Shown here: positions 10,610-51,881 of the stretch, piece after piece
Position numbering within the stretch: position 1 is the first letter of the stretch
How the letters are laid out: each line of letters starts with the position of its first letter
Assembly (NCBI RefSeq): GCF_001543895.1
Contig: NZ_JYIJ01000015.1
Span: 1 to 64,000 of the forward strand
Direction: 5' to 3'
From: Carbonactinospora thermoautotrophica
GTDB lineage: Bacteria > Actinomycetota > Actinomycetes > Streptomycetales > Carbonactinosporaceae
Length of the DNA stretch: 64,000 nucleotides
The notes under the pieces: generated by a model
What the model was told of the DNA's origin: nothing
Databases searched by the model: none
What the model saw: only the letters and a program-made list of their open reading frames with translations
Program-made: the position numbers and the translations under genes

Positions 10610-12475
10610 CTAGTCAAGGGCCCGCAGGAATCGAGCCACGACCGGAGCGGCGTCCCTACCGCCCGAGCCACCGTCCTCAATGAGCAGCGCGAAGGCCAGA
10701 TCCCCACGATAGCCAATCACCCAGGCGTGGGTGCGAGGCGGGTTCTCGTCGCCGTACTGCGCGGTTCCGGTCTTCACCGCCGGTTCACCGGGAAGATCAC
10801 GCAACTGGGCACCCGAGCCCTCGGTGACGACGGCACGCATGAGCGCCCTCAGCTGGTTCACCACTTCGGGCGACAATTTCGTCGGCGCCTGGTAGCGGCG
10901 TTCCGTATTCGGCACGATGATCGGCTGGCGGAACTCCCCCGCCTGAACCGTCGCCGCCACCGCGGCCATGACCAGCGGGCTGGCTTCGACCTTGCCCTGG
11001 CCAATCATGTCCGCGGCCTTCTCCGCCTCGCTCTTGGCCGGCGGAACGCTGCCATCGAACGACGGCAGCCCGACGTTCCACTCCCCGCCGATTCCGAACG
11101 CCTTCGCCTGCTCGGTCAGCGTGTTGTCCTTCAGCTTGTCCCGCTGGGAAATGAACGCGTTGTTACATGATTTGGCGAAATCGGTCCGGAATGGCACCGG
11201 AGGAAGCGCGGAGTCGTTCTCGTTGTAGAACGTCTTCCCCTGCACGTTCGTGGTCTTCGGGCACTCGACCGGGTCCTCCGCCCGCAAGCCGGACTGGAGC
11301 AGGGCCGCGGTCGTGACGACCTTGAACGTGGATCCCGGCGGGTACTTGCCGACGAACGCGCGGTTGAACGCCACCGGCCCCGGCCCGTTGGCCACGGCCA
11401 GGATCTCACCGGTGCTCGGCTTGACCGCCACCAGGGACGCCGGCTTGTCCACCCCGGCGAGCGCCTGCTCGGCGGCGGCCTGCACGGCGTGGTCGAGCGT
11501 GGTCTTGAGCGGCTCTCCGGGCTTCGCGGTGAACTCCCACAGAGTCTCAACGGGCTCCTTGGTATCCCGCCGGACCAGCTCGATCTCGCCGCCGGGCGAA
11601 CCGGCCAACTGGCGCTGGTAGGCATACGAAAGCCCTGACGTGCCGACCGGGTCGCCGGGCATGGCCGACTCCCCGGCGTTTGCCAGCGTCTCCTTGGTCG
11701 CCGGGCCCACCGTGCCCAGGACGGCCCGGGCGAAGCTCGGCGTTTCCGCGAGCGGCCGGGTGTCCTCCCGGGTCACGATCCCCGGCAGGTCGCCGACCGT
11801 GGCCGCCGCCTGCTGGTAGGCGGCCTGCCGCACGGTGATCACCTCGACGAACTCATCCGGCTTGGCCTGCCGGACCCGGGCCTGGAGCTTGGCGGGGTCG
11901 ATCTGGAACGCCCGCTGCAGCGCGGCGTACGCGGCCCCGGGGTCGACGAGCTTGGCGGGCCAGACGCCGACGGTCACGACCGGCTGCTCGGTGAGCAGCG
12001 GCTTGCCGTGGCGATCCAGGATCGGCGCCCGCTCAGGCAGTTCCCGGATCCGCCGGAGCCGGGTCTGGTCGGTGAGTTTCGGGTGCACGACCGCCGGCGA
12101 CCAGCGGACGAGCCACCGCTCCCCGTCCTTCTTCTCCACCGGCACGGCCGAGTCATACGCCCAGTCGCCCAGACCGCGCAGCGTCATCCGGACGTGAAAG
12201 GGCACGATCACCTCGCCGTCCCCCTGCCCGGGCTTCGGGTCGAGCTTCAGTTTCGTGACGCTCAGTGCTTTTTCAACTTCGTCGAGTGCCGACTTCGCCG
12301 CCGCCGGGTTATCGGTGAGGCCCGCGGCTTTCGCGTTGTCCCCGGATTGCCAGGCGTCGAGGAAGGCTCGTGCGGCCTCGGTCGCGCGGTCTCGGTCTTC
12401 CCCAAGCGAGCATGCGACCGCTCCGGAGACCAGCAGGCTGAGGACGACCGCCACCCGTGCGGAGCGTGGTTTCAC
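10610..12475 (-). CDS. Lipoprotein penicillin-binding transpeptidase with NTF2-like domain
   Basis: 621 residues. A signal peptide ends in a lipobox-like VACS (Cys22). An NTF2-like MecA_N domain follows (about 30-145), then a dimerisation region, then the transpeptidase domain with the three active-site motifs STFK (382-385), SCN (436-438) and KTGT (568-571). It would cross-link peptidoglycan outside the membrane as a class B PBP. The MecA_N architecture is shared with PBP2a-like proteins and with many actinomycete PBPs of low beta-lactam affinity. Single gene with its own promoter, divergent from whiB. Confidence 0.9.
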   Translation of the reverse strand: MKPRSARVAVVLSLLVSGAVACSLGEDRDRATEAARAFLDAWQSGDNAKAAGLTDNPAAAKSALDEVEKALSVTKLKLDPKPGQGDGEVIVPFHVRMTLRGLGDWAYDSAVPVEKKDGERWLVRWSPAVVHPKLTDQTRLRRIRELPERAPILDRHGKPLLTEQPVVTVGVWPAKLVDPGAAYAALQRAFQIDPAKLQARVRQAKPDEFVEVITVRQAAYQQAAATVGDLPGIVTREDTRPLAETPSFARAVLGTVGPATKETLANAGESAMPGDPVGTSGLSYAYQRQLAGSPGGEIELVRRDTKEPVETLWEFTAKPGEPLKTTLDHAVQAAAEQALAGVDKPASLVAVKPSTGEILAVANGPGPVAFNRAFVGKYPPGSTFKVVTTAALLQSGLRAEDPVECPKTTNVQGKTFYNENDSALPPVPFRTDFAKSCNNAFISQRDKLKDNTLTEQAKAFGIGGEWNVGLPSFDGSVPPAKSEAEKAADMIGQGKVEASPLVMAAVAATVQAGEFRQPIIVPNTERRYQAPTKLSPEVVNQLRALMRAVVTEGSGAQLRDLPGEPAVKTGTAQYGDENPPRTHAWVIGYRGDLAFALLIEDGGSGGRDAAPVVARFLRALD

Positions 12476-42526: not shown

Positions 42527-42838
42527 CTAGGACTCGGGAAGCAGCACTTCGATGTTGCCGTCGACTATCCGCGTCTCGACGGTAGTGAGCTGGCTGTTAC
42601 CCGGATTGATGCCCTTCCCGGTCAACGCGTCGAATTCCCACAGGTGCATCGCGCAGGTCAGCGTGCATCCGTCGAGGTCGCCGTCGCTCAGCGGCGAGCC
42701 CAGATGGGGACACCTGTCCTCGAACGCGCGAACCTCTCCGCCGACGTTGAGCAGGATCAGCTTCTTTCCCGCAACCTCGACTCCGACGAGCTCTCCCTCC
42801 CACAGGTCTTCTTCCAGCATCACTGCATGCCACGCCAC
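42527..42838 (-). CDS. Rieske [2Fe-2S] ferredoxin (TmoC-like)
   Basis: 103 residues (TmoC is about 110). Cluster ligands C43-P-H45 and C62-A-M-H65. It would carry electrons to the di-iron hydroxylase, as TmoC does in toluene-4-monooxygenase. GTG start chosen (MAWHAVMLEEDLWEG) with GGGAGA upstream. Separated from the beta-subunit gene by an AraC regulator, where tmoC normally sits between tmoB and tmoD. Confidence 0.88.
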   Translation of the reverse strand: MAWHAVMLEEDLWEGELVGVEVAGKKLILLNVGGEVRAFEDRCPHLGSPLSDGDLDGCTLTCAMHLWEFDALTGKGINPGNSQLTTVETRIVDGNIEVLLPES

Positions 42839-42953
42839 GGATTGCTCTCCCTGTTCTCTAGTTCTCCATGCGGCGCGCGATCGGTTCCGGGTGGAGCGGG
42901 CACAACCCCGCAGGCGTATACCGCGCCGCCGTCGATAACCAAAACCGCCAGTG

Positions 42954-43925
42954 CTAACTTTTCGCCCGGAGATTGAACGTTTCCACGCCCTGCAGGCGAA
43001 GAAGATAACTCCGGGGCGTCTCCCCGAAATACCTTTTGAACTCGCTGATGAAGTGCGACAGGCTCGTGTACCCGACCTTGGAGGCCGCCTCACTGACGCT
43101 GTACCCGTGGTCGAGCAGAAGATCCCGCGCCCGCTCCAGCCGCAACTGCTTGAGGAACTTGTACGGCGACGTCCCGACCGTCTGCTTGAACAAGTGAGCG
43201 AACGCGGACTCGCTCATGCACACGGCCTCGGCGATCGCGGCCACCGAGATCGGCTCATGGATCTGCTTTTTCATGTACTCGATCGCGGCGGACACCGGAT
43301 TGCGGCAAGCGTTGAACCGCGAGCTCTCGATCAGCCGATGGCGTTCTTCGGTCTGCAGCAGGCGGTAAACGATCTCACGCAGGTAAAGAGGCGCGAGCAC
43401 AGCCCGATCGGCCTCCGACTCAAGAGCGGTGAGGAACCGGTAGGTGGCACCGATGATGTGGGAGTCGAGCAACGCGACATGGGCTGCGTCGTTTCGGGGC
43501 TTGGAATGCTCCTGATAAAGCGCGGCCAACGGCCGGTGCATCGTCGACAGCACGTCGCTGACCAACGCGGGCTCGATCTGCAGGACGAAAGACAAGAACG
43601 GGCGGGCCTGCGACGCCTCGACGATCTCGACTTCGAACCGGGCCCGCCGGTTCAAGACGAGGTAGCGCATCGGGTCGTAGAGGTACTCTTCCGACCCGAT
43701 GCGTACCTTCTTCGCACCCTGAACGACCAGGCAGTAGGACAGCGAGGCGACTTCATCCCAGTGCGGCGGGACCGGGTCGGAAAACCGGTAGAAGGTGAGC
43801 CCGGGCCAACTGTGCTCGTTGGCTCCCTCCACCTCGGCGTAGCGGTCGACCAACCGGGCCACCTCACCCGCCGCGACCAGGTCATCCCGCAGGAACTGGT
43901 AGTTCTTCTCGCCGCTAGCTGCCAT
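42954..43925 (-). CDS. AraC-family activator inside the SDIMO operon
   Basis: 323 residues. N-terminal AraC_N-like effector domain (about 10-210) and C-terminal double HTH (about 220-310: SVAAIAEAVCMSESAFAHLF; YSVSEAASKVGYTSLSHF). Start ATG with AAGGGA upstream, 14 nt after the beta-subunit stop, so it is cotranscribed with the enzyme genes. That arrangement suggests positive feedback. Likely sites are the direct repeats at 49193-49246 or 49284-49309. Effector unknown, presumably substrate or product. Confidence 0.88.
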   Translation of the reverse strand: MAASGEKNYQFLRDDLVAAGEVARLVDRYAEVEGANEHSWPGLTFYRFSDPVPPHWDEVASLSYCLVVQGAKKVRIGSEEYLYDPMRYLVLNRRARFEVEIVEASQARPFLSFVLQIEPALVSDVLSTMHRPLAALYQEHSKPRNDAAHVALLDSHIIGATYRFLTALESEADRAVLAPLYLREIVYRLLQTEERHRLIESSRFNACRNPVSAAIEYMKKQIHEPISVAAIAEAVCMSESAFAHLFKQTVGTSPYKFLKQLRLERARDLLLDHGYSVSEAASKVGYTSLSHFISEFKRYFGETPRSYLLRLQGVETFNLRAKS

Positions 43926-43939
43926 TCGTCGTTCCCTTG

Positions 43940-44971
43940 CTATTCGGCGAGGCCCGCCTCGCTCAGCACTCGTCTCCTCGCCGACGCGGCAGCCTCCGCC
44001 ACGGTCCGCGCGTCGCGCCCGCTGGGGGGCAGTTCCTCGAAGAGCCTGCCGAGTGCGGCAGCCGCGGCGTCAGCCCGAGGCGTCCACCGGTCTACCCAGC
44101 GACGGAACACGTCACGGTTCGCCTCACGCTGCTCCACGGCGTAGCGGGCGAGAGCGGTGCTCCACCGGACACATCTGTCCACGTCGGTCGCGAGGTTCGA
44201 CAGTAGCAGCCACGTCAGGTCGTCGTTGTTGACATGCGCGAGATTGGCGACCTGGCGGATGAGGATCTCGTCGAGGGTGGGCCGGAGCACGAGGTTCATG
44301 GCGGTGAAGCATTCACCCCAGTCATAGGCGATGAGCAGCTTCTCCAACGCCTCCCGCGCGGGTTGCCAGGCCTCGTGTTCCTCCCAGACGCGCCGCTCGT
44401 CGGTGCCGATACCCCCGACCCCGGGGACGGCGTCCTGCAGTTGGCGGGTCCGGTAGGCCACCACCGTCACCCGGCGCAGCAGGTCGCCGCCCGCGAACAA
44501 CGCGCAGTTGGTGATGTAAGACGACGGCGCCATGTGCGCGAGGTACGCGCTACACATCTGCAGGGCGTGCCCGGGAAACCGGGTGGGGGTGAACACGGTC
44601 CCGAGGAACCGCAGCCACTCCGCAGGCAGCGACTGGTCATGCCCGGTGGTCCCGTACTCGTCCAGGACACCCTCGATGACCGTCTCCTGCTCGTCCTGCA
44701 TCGTGACGTACTTGCGGTAGGTCATCTCGTCGGGGTCCCGGAACCCGTTCCAGTCCTCCGCCTGCAGCGGCGACTTGTCCCGGTAGGTGAGGTACCACAT
44801 GTTCATCGGAGTCGTGGGGTTCGACTCCAGGGCAGTCCTCCGACCGGGACGGGTGGTGTAGTTCAGGCCGTGCGTGACGATCTCATATTCGGTGGGCAGG
44901 CGCCGAAGGTTTCCCAGCGCGCTCCACGTCTTCAGCCGCCGTTGGGGGCGCGAGGTGCTCACCTCGGTCAT
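43940..44971 (-). CDS. SDIMO hydroxylase beta subunit (TmoE-like)
   Basis: 343 residues, close to TmoE (about 330). Ferritin-like helical protein without di-iron ligands, as normal for the beta chain. Segments typical of the subunit: RRLPTEYEIVTHGLNYTTRPGR; SNPTTPMNMWYLTYRDKSPLQ-like; DPDEMTYRKYV. It pairs with the alpha chain in the hydroxylase core. ATG overlaps the stop of the effector gene (ATGA). Confidence 0.88.
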   Translation of the reverse strand: MTEVSTSRPQRRLKTWSALGNLRRLPTEYEIVTHGLNYTTRPGRRTALESNPTTPMNMWYLTYRDKSPLQAEDWNGFRDPDEMTYRKYVTMQDEQETVIEGVLDEYGTTGHDQSLPAEWLRFLGTVFTPTRFPGHALQMCSAYLAHMAPSSYITNCALFAGGDLLRRVTVVAYRTRQLQDAVPGVGGIGTDERRVWEEHEAWQPAREALEKLLIAYDWGECFTAMNLVLRPTLDEILIRQVANLAHVNNDDLTWLLLSNLATDVDRCVRWSTALARYAVEQREANRDVFRRWVDRWTPRADAAAAALGRLFEELPPSGRDARTVAEAAASARRRVLSEAGLAE

Positions 44972-45303
44972 GCTGACTCCTCCTGGATCGGGTGGGTCGT
45001 CGTGGTGGCGGACGGAGCCGCGCCGCTGCCCTTCAGCCGCCAGCGCACCTCCTCCGTGGTGACCTCGATGCGCCCCGCGAAGGCCGACATCAGCCCCTCC
45101 AGCTGCCGCATCTCGAACTCCCGCCCGAGGTGCCGCTGGATGGATTCGCGGGTCAACCGCAGTTCTCCCTCGCCGCTGACCCGGGTGTAGGCACCCCGGT
45201 CGACCACGGTGATCTCCTTGCCGGGGTTGTCGTCCATGATGGCCGCCACGATGGCGTCCACATCGTCGGACATGCGCAGGACCGGCCCCACCGGATTTTT
45301 CAT
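44968..45303 (-). CDS. SDIMO effector/coupling protein (TmoD-like)
   Basis: 111 residues (TmoD is 103). The small cofactor-free effector that docks on the hydroxylase and gates O2 activation. Family segments: VGPVLRMSDDVDAIVAAI; DNPGKEITVVDRGAYTRV; FEMRQLEGLMSAFAG. The ATG at 45303 is preferred because GGAGG is 6 nt upstream; an ATG two codons earlier sits directly on the ribosome site. Confidence 0.88.
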   Translation of the reverse strand: MKNPVGPVLRMSDDVDAIVAAIMDDNPGKEITVVDRGAYTRVSGEGELRLTRESIQRHLGREFEMRQLEGLMSAFAGRIEVTTEEVRWRLKGSGAAPSATTTTHPIQEESA

Positions 45304-45322
45304 GGTCATCCTCCGCTGAAGG

Positions 45323-45631
45323 TCACTCGGCCCAGCCGACGAACACGTTGTCGAGTGGGTTGATTCCGGCCTCGGCGACGGTGAGGTGGCCGGGGACCAC
45401 TTCGCCGTTGTGGCGGACGACCAGGGCCGCGTTTCGCGGCCGCTGGCGCCGACCCACCACGTGGTAAGCGACCTTGCGCGCGAGCTCGTCGATCGTGTCG
45501 GTGTCGAGCACGAGAACGAGCTGGGTGACGAAGTCGTTCTCGAACAAGGCGTTGATCGGAACGGGCTGCCCCTCGTCCGCAGGACCCTGGACCTGCTCCG
45601 ACCCCGCGCTCACATCCTGGATCTCGGTCAT
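45323..45631 (-). CDS. SDIMO hydroxylase gamma subunit (TmoB-like)
   Basis: 102 residues (TmoB is about 85). Ubiquitin-like small subunit; recognisable segments are FENDFVTQLVLVLDTDTIDE and HLTVAEAGINPLDNVFVG. It completes the (alpha-beta-gamma)2 hydroxylase. N-terminal extension of about 20 residues (SAGSEQVQGPADEGQ) is longer than in TmoB. AGGAG precedes the ATG. Confidence 0.85.
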   Translation of the reverse strand: MTEIQDVSAGSEQVQGPADEGQPVPINALFENDFVTQLVLVLDTDTIDELARKVAYHVVGRRQRPRNAALVVRHNGEVVPGHLTVAEAGINPLDNVFVGWAE

Positions 45632-45666: not shown

Positions 45667-47172
45667 TCAGGCGACGGATTGCGTCGGCTGCGACGCGTAG
45701 GGCTTGGCCCAGCTGTAGTTGTGGGCGTCGTCGCCCATGACGTCCGGAGTCAGCCCCATCCAGGCCAAGATCCCCTCCACGGTCGGCGGCTGGATCTCAC
45801 CGGCCAGCAGACGCTCGATCACGGTGGGGTCGTGCATCGTGTCCCTGTCCTCCCACCAGATCTGCCGGCAGGGGCGGGAGCAGAAGTGGTAGGTGTAGCC
45901 GTTGTGCTTGAGGGGGTAGCTGCGCACCGGGTACTTGTCGTTGTTCGGGGCGGCGGCGGTGCCGATCGGCAGGTGGCACAGGTTACACAGCCACGGCAGG
46001 GTCTCCGGGAAGGTCGGCTCCATCCGGCCGCTGTTGACGTTCTCGATGATGACGTCCCAGATCCAGCCGAAGTTCTTCTCCCAGTCCGGGTACTTCTCGT
46101 TCAGCCAGTCGCGCTCTTCGGGGGAAACGCCGCCCTGCGGCTTCCACCACACCGTGGGACGCCAGTACCACACGCCCAGGTGCAGGGAGTGGTGCCAGGT
46201 GTCCAGCCCGGCCAGGAACTCGTCCCAGTACCACGGCTTCTTCAGCCCGTAGTCTTGGATCTGGTCAAGGAACTGCTCCGCGATCCACTCCTCCATGAAC
46301 TCCTTGTAGGACTGCTTACGCATCTCCAGCGGCGTGTAGTAGTCCATTCCCGGACCGGTCAGCACCGAGAACAGCCGCGCCGAGACCCAGAACGTCTTGT
46401 CGATGATCCACTGCGCCCGCTTGGGATCGTGCTCGACGAGGATTTCCAGCGTCGGCCCGCCCTGCTGGGAGTGCCTGGCCTCGTCGGTCTGGATCGACGA
46501 GATCATGTTGGCGAAGTTGATGTCCCCCGACTCCAGCGCGTCGGCCGACAACGCCACGAACTGGACATTGGTGAACCCGGTCTCGAAGGTGAACGGGAGC
46601 TGAATCGCCACGTCCACGACGTTGGGGTTGATCATCATGCCGTCGAACGTCGCCCGCGCCGCGATGATCGCCCAGTCGTTGGTCTGGTACGCCTTGTGGG
46701 CCCAGTCGTACTGGGGGTCCTTGCCGATCAGCTCGTGGGGGAAGAACAGGCTGATCTGGGCGTGTCGAGTCTCGTCCAGTGCCCCGAAGAGCGCCACGTT
46801 GCGCCACGCCGGCGACAGTCCGAAGCGGGCCATGCGCAGTTCGGCGTACACCGCCAGGTCCTCGATGAGGGAAACAGCGCCGAAGTGCACCTTGGCGACG
46901 GACTTCCACCCCTCGTCCAGCTGGTCGAAGACCTTGGACTTCTGCAGCACCGACTTCACCGAGTAGGCGCCGGTCTCCTTCTCCCGCTGGGTCGCCACGT
47001 ACTCGGGATAGGTGACCTTGTAGGGCTCGTCCCACTTGGCCCACGCCTCACGGGGGATCTTGCCGTGACCGCACATCCACTCCGGGAAGACGGCCTCGTA
47101 GTCCACATAGGACAGCGTCCAGTCGAGGTCGCGGACGATGTCGTACCACTTCTCACGGGCCATGCGTGCCAT
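45667..47172 (-). CDS. SDIMO hydroxylase alpha subunit (TmoA-like)
   Basis: 501 residues, the same length as TmoA of toluene-4-monooxygenase. All six di-iron ligands fall at the TmoA positions: E104, E134, H137, E197, E231, H234 (DETRHAQ and DEARHSQ). T201 and F176 of the active site are kept; position 103, a Gly in TmoA, is Ile here. The C-terminus has a YHS-like knuckle with C396, C399, C431 and C435, likely a zinc site. It activates O2 for hydroxylation or epoxidation of an aromatic or alkene. Group 2 SDIMO by gene order. ATG start after AGGAGG. Confidence 0.93.
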   Translation of the reverse strand: MARMAREKWYDIVRDLDWTLSYVDYEAVFPEWMCGHGKIPREAWAKWDEPYKVTYPEYVATQREKETGAYSVKSVLQKSKVFDQLDEGWKSVAKVHFGAVSLIEDLAVYAELRMARFGLSPAWRNVALFGALDETRHAQISLFFPHELIGKDPQYDWAHKAYQTNDWAIIAARATFDGMMINPNVVDVAIQLPFTFETGFTNVQFVALSADALESGDINFANMISSIQTDEARHSQQGGPTLEILVEHDPKRAQWIIDKTFWVSARLFSVLTGPGMDYYTPLEMRKQSYKEFMEEWIAEQFLDQIQDYGLKKPWYWDEFLAGLDTWHHSLHLGVWYWRPTVWWKPQGGVSPEERDWLNEKYPDWEKNFGWIWDVIIENVNSGRMEPTFPETLPWLCNLCHLPIGTAAAPNNDKYPVRSYPLKHNGYTYHFCSRPCRQIWWEDRDTMHDPTVIERLLAGEIQPPTVEGILAWMGLTPDVMGDDAHNYSWAKPYASQPTQSVA

Positions 47173-47202: not shown

Positions 47203-47694
47203 TCAGTCGACCTCGAGCCAGCCGAGCTGCTGCTTCCAGTCCACGTTGTCCCAATAGGCGACGATGTCGTCGATGAGGCCCTCATCGGTGACGCGGAACA
47301 GGAACAGGTGCGGCAGGTTGAAGTACTCGCCGCGGCACGCGATCACGCCGAAGTCCTTGGCCTGGGTGCCGTTGATGTCCACCTGGACCGCGACGTTGCC
47401 CTCCTCGTCGGCCCGGACACTGTGCACCACGTTGGAGAGGTCGGGGAACGTGTCGATGAGGGTCGTCCAGATGGCCTTGCCCACTGTGCGGACCTTGCCG
47501 TCACCGTACACGACGCGCTGGCGCATCCAAACCTCGAACGGCACGTAGCGGAAATTCGCGTTGTCTGTGCACAGGTCGACCATGCGCTCCACGTCGTGCG
47601 CGCGGTAGGCGTCGAAGAACGCGATGACCGCGGATTTCGCCAGCTCAGCCCTGGAGGTACGAGTCGTGTTCTCCGCTGCGGTCGAAATGCTCAC
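47203..47694 (-). CDS. NTF2/SnoaL-like protein a of SDIMO island
   Basis: 163 residues, cone-shaped NTF2-like fold. It shares with its neighbour the pattern xINGTQAKDFGVI...YWDNVDWKQQLG, so the two are paralogues. SnoaL-like proteins are cyclases, isomerases or (limonene epoxide type) hydrolases. With an oxygenase beside it, a role in opening or rearranging the oxidised product is possible. GTG start 5 nt after GAGGAG; an in-frame GTG two codons upstream is the alternative. Lies 30 nt before the alpha-subunit gene. Confidence 0.7.
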   Translation of the reverse strand: MSISTAAENTTRTSRAELAKSAVIAFFDAYRAHDVERMVDLCTDNANFRYVPFEVWMRQRVVYGDGKVRTVGKAIWTTLIDTFPDLSNVVHSVRADEEGNVAVQVDINGTQAKDFGVIACRGEYFNLPHLFLFRVTDEGLIDDIVAYWDNVDWKQQLGWLEVD

Positions 47695-47703
47695 CGACAC
47701 TCC

Positions 47704-48141
47704 TCACCTGGCCGTGATCGTGATCTTGTCGAGTCGCTTGACGCCCAGCCGACGGTAGAGGTGGTTCTGGTCCCAGTAACCGGTGACGGCGGTGATCCGG
47801 TCGCTGTCGTCGATCTGCAGCATCCAGCCCTGGTCGATGTCGAAGTGCTTCTCCTGATTGATCACACCGAGGAAGTCGTCGGCCTGCGTGCCGTCGATGG
47901 TGATCTCAGCGACCGCGGTGTTGTCCGTGGTGACGAACAGCCGCCGCACCCGCACCAGCAGGTCGGGGAACGCCTTGGCCAAGGCCCGCAGATACTCCGC
48001 GCCTTCCTTCGCCATCGAACCGTGCACGCCCAGCGGCACCAGCGACACCGTGGCGTCGGGCGCGGTCAAAGCCAGCGTCTTGTCCACGTCGCCGGCCTGC
48101 ATCCGCTCGAAGAACTCCTGCGCGACATCGCGTGCGCCCAT
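47704..48141 (-). CDS. NTF2/SnoaL-like protein b of SDIMO island
   Basis: 145 residues. Same fold and shared motif as the next gene (TIDGTQADDFLGVI; GYWDQNHLYRRLGV). N-terminal MGARDVAQEFFERMQAGDVDK is the typical first helix of SnoaL-like proteins. ATG preceded by GGAGG located inside the end of the DJ-1 gene, 4 nt away, so translation is coupled. The pair could form a hetero-oligomer. No catalytic residue set was firmly assigned. Confidence 0.7.
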   Translation of the reverse strand: MGARDVAQEFFERMQAGDVDKTLALTAPDATVSLVPLGVHGSMAKEGAEYLRALAKAFPDLLVRVRRLFVTTDNTAVAEITIDGTQADDFLGVINQEKHFDIDQGWMLQIDDSDRITAVTGYWDQNHLYRRLGVKRLDKITITAR

Positions 48142-48145
48142 GCCC

Positions 48146-49165
48146 TCACACCTCCAGCCGCTTGAGCACGGCATCGGCCGCCGCCTCCGACGAAGCGGGG
48201 TTCTGCGCGGTGATCAGGTTGCGGTCGACGACCACGTGCGAGACCCAGGCGGCGTCCCCGTCGTCGAAGATCGCGCCCCGGTTCTTCAGCGCGCTCTCCA
48301 GGTACCACTCCATGCCCAACCGGCCGGCTTTGGTCTGGTCCTCTTCCTCGTCGGTGAACGCGGTCATCTTGTAGCCCTCGAACAGCCAGACCCCGTCCAC
48401 CACAGGCGCCGACAGCAGGGCCGCCGGACCGTGGCACAACGCGGCGATCGTCTTGTTCTCCTCGTGCAGGATCCGCAGCACCCGGCGCATGTCGGGGTTG
48501 TCGACCAGGTCGACCATCGGCCCGTGACCGCCGGGGATGAACACGCCGTCGAAAGAGCGGATCTCCTCGTCGGTCAACTCAGCGAGGCTCTTGGGGTGCT
48601 GCAGGCCGGGGATGGCGGCGAGCTTCTCCGCGACCTCCCGGGCGTTGGCGGCGCTGTCCTGCCACACCTCATCCTTGATCGCGTTGATCCGGTCCAGCGA
48701 CAGCCGTTCGGTCACCTCATCGACGCCGGCCAGCACCTCGACGAGGTCGATGTTCTTGCTCCACGCCGTCCGGGCCGCCGACTCGAGCACCTCGCGCGCC
48801 CGCAGCCGGTCCATGCCCGTCTCGACCAGCGCGTGGAACAGCCGGCGCACCGCGATGAGATTGAGGCGGATGAGGTGGTCGAGGGTCACCCGGATGTCAT
48901 CGACGTCCGGCGCGAAGCTCCGGCACACCGAGAGCATGAAATCTTCATCGTCCTGGGGGTAGTGGAAATACGGCTCCAGCCCCCACGGGTCGGGCTGCGG
49001 CTGCTTGCCGTCGGGCGTGGCGATCACCAGGTCCACCCCGGCCTGCTCGAACCTCTCGTAGGGTTCGAGAACCTCTTCCGCCCAATAACCGGTTGGATGG
49101 TCGCTGCCATCCGCCAGCTTCATCGATCGCGCACTTGACACGACCATGAGCAACTTCTTCGCCAT
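48146..49165 (-). CDS. DJ-1/PfpI-family protein with large helical insertion
   Basis: 339 residues, about 100 more than a normal DJ-1/Hsp31 protein. The core has the nucleophile elbow ALCHGPAAL (C244-H245) and PGGHGPM (211-217). An inserted, helix-rich block covers about residues 78-185 (for example LDHLIRLNLIAVRRLFHALV), absent from the paralogue at 49322-50038. DJ-1 relatives are glyoxalases, deglycases or hydratases acting on reactive carbonyls. First gene after the main regulatory repeats, hence head of the SDIMO operon. ATG at 49165 chosen (GGGAG upstream). Confidence 0.8.
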   Translation of the reverse strand: MAKKLLMVVSSARSMKLADGSDHPTGYWAEEVLEPYERFEQAGVDLVIATPDGKQPQPDPWGLEPYFHYPQDDEDFMLSVCRSFAPDVDDIRVTLDHLIRLNLIAVRRLFHALVETGMDRLRAREVLESAARTAWSKNIDLVEVLAGVDEVTERLSLDRINAIKDEVWQDSAANAREVAEKLAAIPGLQHPKSLAELTDEEIRSFDGVFIPGGHGPMVDLVDNPDMRRVLRILHEENKTIAALCHGPAALLSAPVVDGVWLFEGYKMTAFTDEEEDQTKAGRLGMEWYLESALKNRGAIFDDGDAAWVSHVVVDRNLITAQNPASSEAAADAVLKRLEV

Positions 49166-49192
49166 CAAAATCTCCCAGGTTTGGCTCTCCGC

Positions 49193-49246
49193 TGATCATG
49201 GAAAGCATGACGTCACTAGCAATTGATCATGAAAAGCGTGACGTCA
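49193..49246 (-). promoter_or_regulatory. Two 23-nt direct repeats ahead of the SDIMO operon
   Basis: Copies at 49193-49215 and 49224-49246, 31 nt apart (about three helical turns), differing at two positions. Each runs TGATCATG, then (G/A)AAAGC, then (A/G)TGACGTCA, and so contains the palindromes TGATCA and TGACGTCA. They lie 28-81 nt before the DJ-1 start. Tandem direct repeats fit an AraC-family activator, but repressor or 5'-UTR roles are possible. Confidence 0.65.
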
Positions 49247-49283
49247 TAAGCAGCCCGCAGCTCCACGAGAAGGCGCTGGAGTA

Positions 49284-49309
49284 TATCTGCGTAACTGAAT
49301 ATCTACGTA
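49284..49309 (-). promoter_or_regulatory. Second direct repeat pair, SDIMO promoter
   Basis: TATCTGCGTA (49284-49293) and TATCTACGTA (49300-49309), 16 nt apart, just upstream of the 23-nt repeats in the sense of transcription. On the transcribed strand it reads TACG(T/C)AGATA twice. The segment is AT-richer than its surroundings. Could be the activator half-sites or hold a -35/-10. Confidence 0.5.
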
Positions 49310-49321
49310 CGAAGAATTCGA

Positions 49322-50038
49322 CTAGCTCGACGCCTTCACGGAAAGCAGGTCGATGACCTTGGCGGCCAAAGGTTCGCTGGAAGCCGGGTTCTGACCGGTC
49401 ACGACCGTGCGGTCGACAACGACGTAAGGCTGCCACGGTTCGCCGGCCTCGAACACCCCGCCCTCGCTGCGCAGCCGGTCTTCCAGCAGCCAGCTGGCCT
49501 TGTCCGCGAAGCCGACCTGCCCCTCCTCCACATTGGTGAAGGCGGTGACCCGGTAGCCGTTGAACGCCCAGGTACCGTCCTCGCGCCGGGCGGAGAGCAG
49601 TCCGGCCGGCCCGTGGCAGACCGCCGACACCAGCTTCCCGTCGTCGAGCAGCCGCACGAGCAGCGCGCCCAGGTCCTCAGACCGCGCCAGGTCTTCCATG
49701 GGACCGTGCCCGCCCGGAATGAACAGGGCATCGACGGTGGCGGGGTCGACGTCCTCGAGGCGGGCCGGCTTCGCCAGTTCGGCGCTGATCTTGTCGAGAT
49801 AGGCGCGCATTTCGGCGACCTTGGCCTCGTCGCCACCGTTCATTTCCGGGGTCAAGCTCGCCGGGTCGGCAGTCGGAGCGACTCCCCCCGGCGTGGCCAC
49901 GACGACGTTCAGGCCTCGTTCGCGGAAGGCCCGATGCGGGACGACAAGTTCCTCGGTCCAGTAACCGCTGGGATGCCTGGTGCCGTCCGCCAGCGTCCAG
50001 TAATTCGAGGCCGAAACGACCATGAGAACCGTGCTCAT
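49322..50038 (-). CDS. DJ-1/PfpI-family protein, short form
   Basis: 238 residues, normal Hsp31-like length. Nucleophile C141-H142 in AVCHGPAGLL, PGGHGPM at 108-114, and the N-terminal GYWTEELVVPHRAF with the conserved Glu. A paralogue of the longer protein downstream. ATG start. It is separated from the SDIMO operon by the repeat-bearing promoter and faces the divergent ABM-reductase-VOC genes, so it may be transcribed from its own promoter in 50039-50362. Confidence 0.85.
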   Translation of the reverse strand: MSTVLMVVSASNYWTLADGTRHPSGYWTEELVVPHRAFRERGLNVVVATPGGVAPTADPASLTPEMNGGDEAKVAEMRAYLDKISAELAKPARLEDVDPATVDALFIPGGHGPMEDLARSEDLGALLVRLLDDGKLVSAVCHGPAGLLSARREDGTWAFNGYRVTAFTNVEEGQVGFADKASWLLEDRLRSEGGVFEAGEPWQPYVVVDRTVVTGQNPASSEPLAAKVIDLLSVKASS

Positions 50039-50660: not shown

Positions 50661-51881
50661 ATGATCAACACAATCGTGATCGTCGGGGCCGGCCAGTGCG
50701 GAGCCTCGGCCGCCGAGACGCTGCGCAACGAAGGCTTCGACGGCGCGCTCGTCCTCATCGGCGACGAGGGCGACCCGCCTTACGAGCGTCCCCCGCTGTC
50801 GAAGGAGTACCTGCAGGGCAAGCAAGACCGCGAGGAGCTGCTCATCCGGTCCCGGGAGTGGTACCGGGACGCCGGAATCGAGCTGCGTACCGGATCGGCT
50901 GCCACCTCCCTGGACCTCGACGCCGGTGTGGTGCGGCTGAGCGACGGCGACCGCGTCTCCTTCGATCGGCTGCTGCTCGCCACCGGCGGCCGGGCCCGGA
51001 CGCTGCCCGGCCGCTACCAGCGCGTTCGGTACCTTCGCTCGTTGGCCGACGCCGATCGCCTGCGCACGGAGCTACCCGCCGCCGGCCACGTCGTCATCGT
51101 CGGCGCGGGGTTCATCGGCGCTGAGCTCGCCGCCTCCGCGCGGTCCCTCGGCATCGACGTGACCATGCTGGAGGCACTCGAGGTGCCGCTGGCACGCGTG
51201 CTGGGTACCGAGATCGGCGCCGTCTACGCGGGCATCCACCGGGATCAGGGAGTACGGCTGCGCACCGGCGAGGGATTGGAGTCGATCACCGAATCCGCCG
51301 ACGGCACCGTCCGCGTCCGTACCACCCGCGAGCAGGTCATCGACTGCGACCTCGTGGTGGTCGGCATAGGCATCACGCCGAACAGCGAGCTCGCTCAGGC
51401 GGCGGGCATCACCACCGACAACGGGATCGTGGTCGACCAGTTCTGCCGCACCAGCGCGCCCCACGTCTACGCCGCCGGCGATGTGGCCAACCACTTCCAC
51501 CCCCTGTTCGGCCGGCGGCTGCGCGTCGAGCACTACGACAACGCGATCCGCCAGGGGGCGGCGGCGGCCCGCAACATGCTGGGCAAGGACGTCGTCTTCG
51601 ACGAGTGCCACTGGTTCTGGTCTGACCAGTACGACGTGAACCTCCAATACACCGGGCACTGCCCGCAGTGGGACGAGATCGTCGTCCGCGGCTCGCTCGA
51701 GGAGCGGCGGTTCACCGCCTTCTACCTCAACCACGGCATCGTGAACGCTGCCTTGGCGCTGAACCGGCCCAAGGACATCGTGCGCGCCAAGAAGATGATC
51801 CGCGCCCGCACCCCGGTCGACGTGGCCAAGCTCCGCGACGAAGACGTGGACCTGCGCAAGCTCCTCCAGCAGCCCGCATGA
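50661..51881 (+). CDS. FAD-dependent ferredoxin reductase (BphA4/rhodocoxin reductase type)
   Basis: 406 residues, glutathione-reductase fold. FAD loop VGAGQCGASAAETLR, NAD loop VGAGFIGAELAASA, and FAD contact YAAGDVAN; a C-terminal reductase domain (WFWSDQYDVNLQYTGHC). It transfers electrons from NADH to a [2Fe-2S] ferredoxin. No plant-type ferredoxin domain is present, unlike TmoF. As the only reductase in the island it should feed the Rieske protein encoded at 42527-42838. Confidence 0.9.
   Translation: MINTIVIVGAGQCGASAAETLRNEGFDGALVLIGDEGDPPYERPPLSKEYLQGKQDREELLIRSREWYRDAGIELRTGSAATSLDLDAGVVRLSDGDRVSFDRLLLATGGRARTLPGRYQRVRYLRSLADADRLRTELPAAGHVVIVGAGFIGAELAASARSLGIDVTMLEALEVPLARVLGTEIGAVYAGIHRDQGVRLRTGEGLESITESADGTVRVRTTREQVIDCDLVVVGIGITPNSELAQAAGITTDNGIVVDQFCRTSAPHVYAAGDVANHFHPLFGRRLRVEHYDNAIRQGAAAARNMLGKDVVFDECHWFWSDQYDVNLQYTGHCPQWDEIVVRGSLEERRFTAFYLNHGIVNAALALNRPKDIVRAKKMIRARTPVDVAKLRDEDVDLRKLLQQPA

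Follow-up and report, generated by a model that had tools for sequence, protein, structure and literature searches.

Background

Direct repeats upstream of catabolic genes under the control of AraC-type proteins have precedents in CphR of Rhodococcus (PMC6205950) and in XylS (PMC5481539). In Rhodococcus sp. YH-5B, the CphR operator of cphA2A1 consists of two 15-bp units, TGCA-N6-GGNTA, located 20 bp apart at −35 to −49 and −55 to −69 and tested by mutation (PMC6205950). Class II AraC/XylS sites end near −35, as this one does (−35 to −69; PMC6205950). At the Pm promoter, two direct half-sites, each with a box A (TGCA) and a box B (GGTA) separated by N6, are bound by a dimer of the AraC/XylS family at a catabolic promoter (PMC5481539).

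The locus described here lies in a 64-kb stretch of DNA, referred to below as the window. It resembles the CphR/cphA2A1 system in having an AraC-type regulator (here a putative one), an actinomycete monooxygenase operon as its target, and a pair of imperfect direct repeats ahead of the first gene. Unlike the CphR units, those of the window are 23 nt long, 31 nt apart and of another sequence, and the enzyme is a diiron one, whereas the CphR target is a two-component enzyme (reductase plus oxygenase). The likeness to XylS/Pm lies in two direct half-sites at a catabolic promoter and, as a proposal, in binding by a dimer; the spacing and the position relative to the start codon differ, and boxes of the TGCA-N6-GGNTA or TGCA-N6-GGTA kind at 20–21 bp spacing were absent from the units as read. 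A literature search for AraC sites with three-turn spacing found none.

The operon and its upstream region

The operon is on the minus strand. Its first gene (48146..49165) encodes a 339-aa DJ-1/PfpI family protein with an extra middle domain, and is followed by genes for two NTF2/SnoaL-like proteins (a, 47704..48174; b, 47203..47700), the TmoA-like SDIMO hydroxylase alpha subunit (45667..47172; PF02332), a TmoB-like gamma subunit (45323..45631; PF06234), an MmoB/DmpM effector protein (44968..45309; PF02406), the SDIMO hydroxylase beta subunit (43940..44971; PF02332) and a regulator with AraC_N and HTH_18 domains (42954..43925; PF06719 and PF12833, both above cut-off), which is the candidate ligand of the repeats. 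A further ORF (42527..43093, minus strand) contains a Rieske ferredoxin domain at residues 88–168; its true start is probably downstream of the AraC stop codon. By reading of the translation, an AMP-dependent ligase also belongs to the operon. A FAD ferredoxin-reductase-like gene at 50661-51881, on the opposite strand, has homologs in two of the orthologous clusters described below (L034 and L057). The Group 2 (T4MO-like) SDIMO gene set is complete, with alpha, beta, TmoB-like gamma, MmoB effector, Rieske ferredoxin and FAD reductase; Pfam matches cover the SDIMO subunits and the Rieske protein, and the reductase was assigned from its ORF and homologs.

The extra stretch between the two halves of the first gene product gave a weak ADSL_C match (32.7 bits, at cut-off). 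In Rhodococcus and in MAGs, PfpI genes of this type are accompanied by two NTF2-like genes and genes for T4MO-like subunits, and a literature search found no description of the PfpI-NTF2-NTF2-TmoABDE-AraC operon type. Eight PF02332 matches on C13, C15 and C19 of the same genome correspond to four SDIMO alpha/beta pairs, two of them adjacent on C19, and five molybdenum hydroxylase large subunits are also encoded. A sub-threshold Hammerhead_II match inside the reductase coding region (50832-50900; 25 bits, gathering score 37; E 0.15) is probably due to chance.

The repeats are in a 156-nt intergenic region (49166..49321) with a GC content of 48%, compared with about 64–70% around it. Upstream is a second DJ-1/PfpI gene (49322-50038) on the same strand as the operon, and no terminator was found between it and the gene at 49165. 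The counterpart of this upstream gene is divergent in Rhodococcus, and in L034 the neighbour is the divergent reductase; because of these divergent neighbours, the gene context makes the 339-aa gene at 49165 the likely start of the operon.

The repeat pair

The two units, at 49193-49215 (TGATCATGGAAAGCATGACGTCA) and 49224-49246 (TGATCATGAAAAGCGTGACGTCA), are identical at 21 of 23 positions with a start-to-start distance of 31 nt, and TGATCA and TGACGTCA are present in both. Read on the minus strand, in the orientation of the operon, the unit is TGACGTCAYGCTTTYCATGATCA; the proximal copy (49193..49215) is TGACGTCATGCTTTCCATGATCA, with its GTCA core 46 nt before the ATG, and the distal copy (49224..49246) is TGACGTCACGCTTTTCATGATCA, with the core at 77 nt. 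Together they span 28–81 nt before the ATG at 49165. Since TGCT on the outer (upstream) side also matches between the copies, the pair forms a head-to-tail duplication of two contiguous 31-nt copies (49191..49252, minus strand) that are 25/31 identical.

At up to 3 mismatches, a motif scan of the 64-kb window returned these two units only (expected, 0.04), and in the 5.13-Mb genome they were the only perfect matches. The next-best genomic match, C17:134326 with 2 mismatches, lies within the coding frame of an ABC transporter (CbiO-like by our reading) and was ruled out as a second operator site for that reason. When the intergenic region was shuffled 3000 times with dinucleotides preserved, no pair matched at more than 18/23 positions and 21/23 was never reached. 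No other pair of this quality occurs in the window, where the 23-nt core is the best pair; Tandem Repeats Finder at score 30 left it unreported and reported the Rhodococcus pair described below. The repeat pair in front of the SDIMO operon is real and non-random. The original prediction, which described two near-identical 23-nt units 31 nt apart with both palindromes in each, an outer edge 81 nt from the first gene and a very low likelihood of chance occurrence, was accurate in all of these respects.

Comparison with orthologous operons

Five orthologous operons were compared: L034, from an actinobacterial MAG, whose AraC is the nearest ortholog of that in the window (72% identical); L035, from a MAG labelled Alphaproteobacteria (47%); L057, on the Rhodococcus koreensis plasmid NZ_CP070611 (46%); L071, from G897 and near-identical to L057; and L072, from G823 (45%). 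The upstream regions of L057 and L071 are near-identical and were counted once, giving four other lineages in all. Further orthologs were sought in samples of the phylum, family and genus, and only those in G897 and G823 were obtained. An AraC ortholog accompanies the operon in every ortholog read.

The 23-nt motif was absent from all four of these lineages (in L034, at up to 3 mismatches). Lack of conservation upstream of orthologous clusters was one half of what the original prediction had named as speaking against it, the other being failure of the AraC protein to bind, and on the first half the search went against the prediction. In a class sample of 365 genomes, no exact match was found in other genomes, and the 13 one-mismatch matches were all single, none being paired; the reversed pattern gave 0, which is a weak control for coding bias. 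With neither exact nor paired occurrences in this sample, the motif of a known regulon was rejected as a reading of the units. A DNA search of the upstream region against 40 relatives gave low-similarity matches only (best E 1.2e-6, 70% identity over about 110 nt).

Upstream of the same first gene and operon, L057 and L071 have a tandem pair (24-nt units, GCGGTCACATTCTCACCATCAACG, with a spacing of 29 nt) that ends 16 nt before the PfpI ATG. This pair shares with that of the window the location directly before the start codon and the GTCA core; it differs in the rest of its sequence, in a period two nt shorter and in the AraC gene, which is upstream of the operon rather than inside it. Elsewhere, in 471 kb of comparison DNA, the frequency of pairs of this quality is about one per 34 kb, and it is therefore unlikely that chance placed one at this position in both the window and Rhodococcus. 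The best alignment of a window unit with the Rhodococcus upstream region placed it over the repeats, in matching orientation (GTCAC-N-ATCAA), with marginal significance (p 0.06–0.1). Only GTCA and, weakly, ATCA are common to the two sets of repeats.

Several of these features would also be expected if the repeats arose by recent tandem duplication of promoter DNA and did not themselves serve in binding. In both the window (31-nt period) and Rhodococcus (29-nt period) the copies adjoin head-to-tail, as from slippage, the unit sequence differs between lineages, and a comparison of L057 with L071 shows the repeats to be conserved no more strongly than the sequence around them. But two distant genera each have an independent pair at this position ahead of the same gene, which is hard to reconcile with that background frequency, and the window copies differ mostly outside the 23-nt core (4/8 flank positions versus 2/23 core positions), which suggests selection on the core. 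We consider this explanation unlikely.

A GTCA pair 29–32 nt apart was found in three lineages, at −77/−46 from the ATG in the window, −66/−37 in Rhodococcus and −82/−50 in L034. The L034 upstream region has no tandem repeat, only this GTCA pair with its spacing of 32 nt; within the final 100 nt of the region GTCA is, besides the overlapping GGTC, the sole 4-mer repeated at 28–33 nt spacing. Shuffling gave p 0.0024 with position constrained and 0.023 without, for a post hoc comparison chosen after the sequences had been seen. L035 and L072 have neither the tandem repeat nor the GTCA pair.

Two other repeats were noted. In L072 the PfpI gene is preceded, at about 11380-11470, by two copies of AGCAGGA with a spacing of 21 nt, where the window has its 31-nt pair. 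L066 (about 12900, WAY2 plasmid) and L067 carry 20-nt direct repeats, GTCTCTGCGC-N5-GGACA, ahead of the genes of another Rhodococcus SDIMO operon that likewise has an AraC gene; these repeats are present on both plasmids, and their spacing is typical of XylS-type sites.

Candidate ligands and promoter geometry

The repeats are probably the docking site of a gene-control protein and probably a two-site operator. The original prediction took them as the best candidates for binding sites of the operon's AraC protein, a reading that is supported in part. In favour of this are the AraC_N and HTH_18 gene within the operon, the similar pair in Rhodococcus and the GTCA pair in three lineages; against it are the lack of conservation of the 23-nt sequence even in L034, a spacing of 29–32 compared with 20–21 bp in XylS and CphR, and the absence of room for a downstream promoter. 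Both recognition helices of the L034 AraC are identical to those of the window protein, so a true AraC site there would be expected to resemble that of the window; GTCA alone does so. This leaves two options, one in which GTCA is the core and the remainder of the 23 nt stems from recent duplication, and one in which another protein binds. The AraC-type protein is a plausible ligand and the leading candidate.

The proximal unit ends 27–28 nt from the ATG in the window, so that a promoter with space for a ribosome-binding site after it must overlap this unit, and the two units cannot both be class II sites, the proximal one being too close to the ATG. The position of the distal unit could suit a site abutting a −35 box; downstream of the proximal unit there is no space for a promoter. 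An XylS-like pair of activator sites fits this geometry less well than an arrangement in which the distal site is an activator site and the proximal one covers the core promoter. A consensus promoter scan requiring 9/12 matches found none; a weak promoter-like pair, TTGCTA-N16-CATGAT (8/12; 49195..49222, minus strand), overlaps the proximal unit and is conjectural.

The same overlap would suit a regulator encoded elsewhere, for example a repressor that reads the near-palindrome TCATG-N5-CATGA / GTCA-N9-TGAY and blocks RNA polymerase at the core promoter. Each window unit contains GTCA-N9-TGAY in the operon orientation, and where the proximal unit would lie, L034 has GTCAAC-N5-GTTGAC, a perfect inverted repeat. 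A 6-bp inverted repeat is, however, expected by chance in about 540 nt, the Rhodococcus repeats lack the inverted form, and no other regulator is conserved beside these operons in the loci read, which leaves a regulator of this kind doubtful.

A promoter further upstream would instead place the repeats in a long 5′ leader, as an RNA element. There is a good −10-like box, TATACT, at 49285-49280, and a 10-bp hairpin can form between the two TGACGTCA cores and their flanks, but this pairing follows from the palindromic core. The folding energy is ordinary (z −0.93 in the window; −0.05 and 0.53 in Rhodococcus) and Rfam gave no match at gathering score, making an RNA element very improbable.

Our preferred reading, somewhat short of probable, is that the PfpI gene (49165) has at its promoter an operator of two GTCA-cored half-sites, bound by a dimer of the operon's AraC protein. 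Tandem duplication of a 31-nt segment would have created it, with one half-site (GTCA-N11-ATCA) per copy on the same helix face about three turns apart, and the dimer would most likely bind both in direct orientation. If TTGCTA-N16-CATGAT is the promoter, the distal unit would occupy a class II activator position (about −36 to −58), and the core promoter would be covered by the proximal unit. The pair might then act as an on/off switch, closed without inducer and activating with it.

An improbable extension is that an AraC_N-type subfamily dedicated to PfpI-NTF2-SDIMO operons recognises GTCA half-sites in direct orientation, spaced by about three helical turns (29–32 bp) directly over the core promoter, compared with the usual two-turn upstream sites, and that tandem duplication of the promoter segment has generated this two-site operator repeatedly.

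Conclusions

The repeats represent a known kind of system with an unusual spacing, and nothing radically new. If confirmed, the operator would provide a control site and an inducer assay for the PfpI-NTF2-NTF2-TmoABDE-AraC type of SDIMO operon, as well as an example of AraC-type sites with three-turn spacing, and a reporter placed on the promoter could help to find the substrate of the SDIMO operon.
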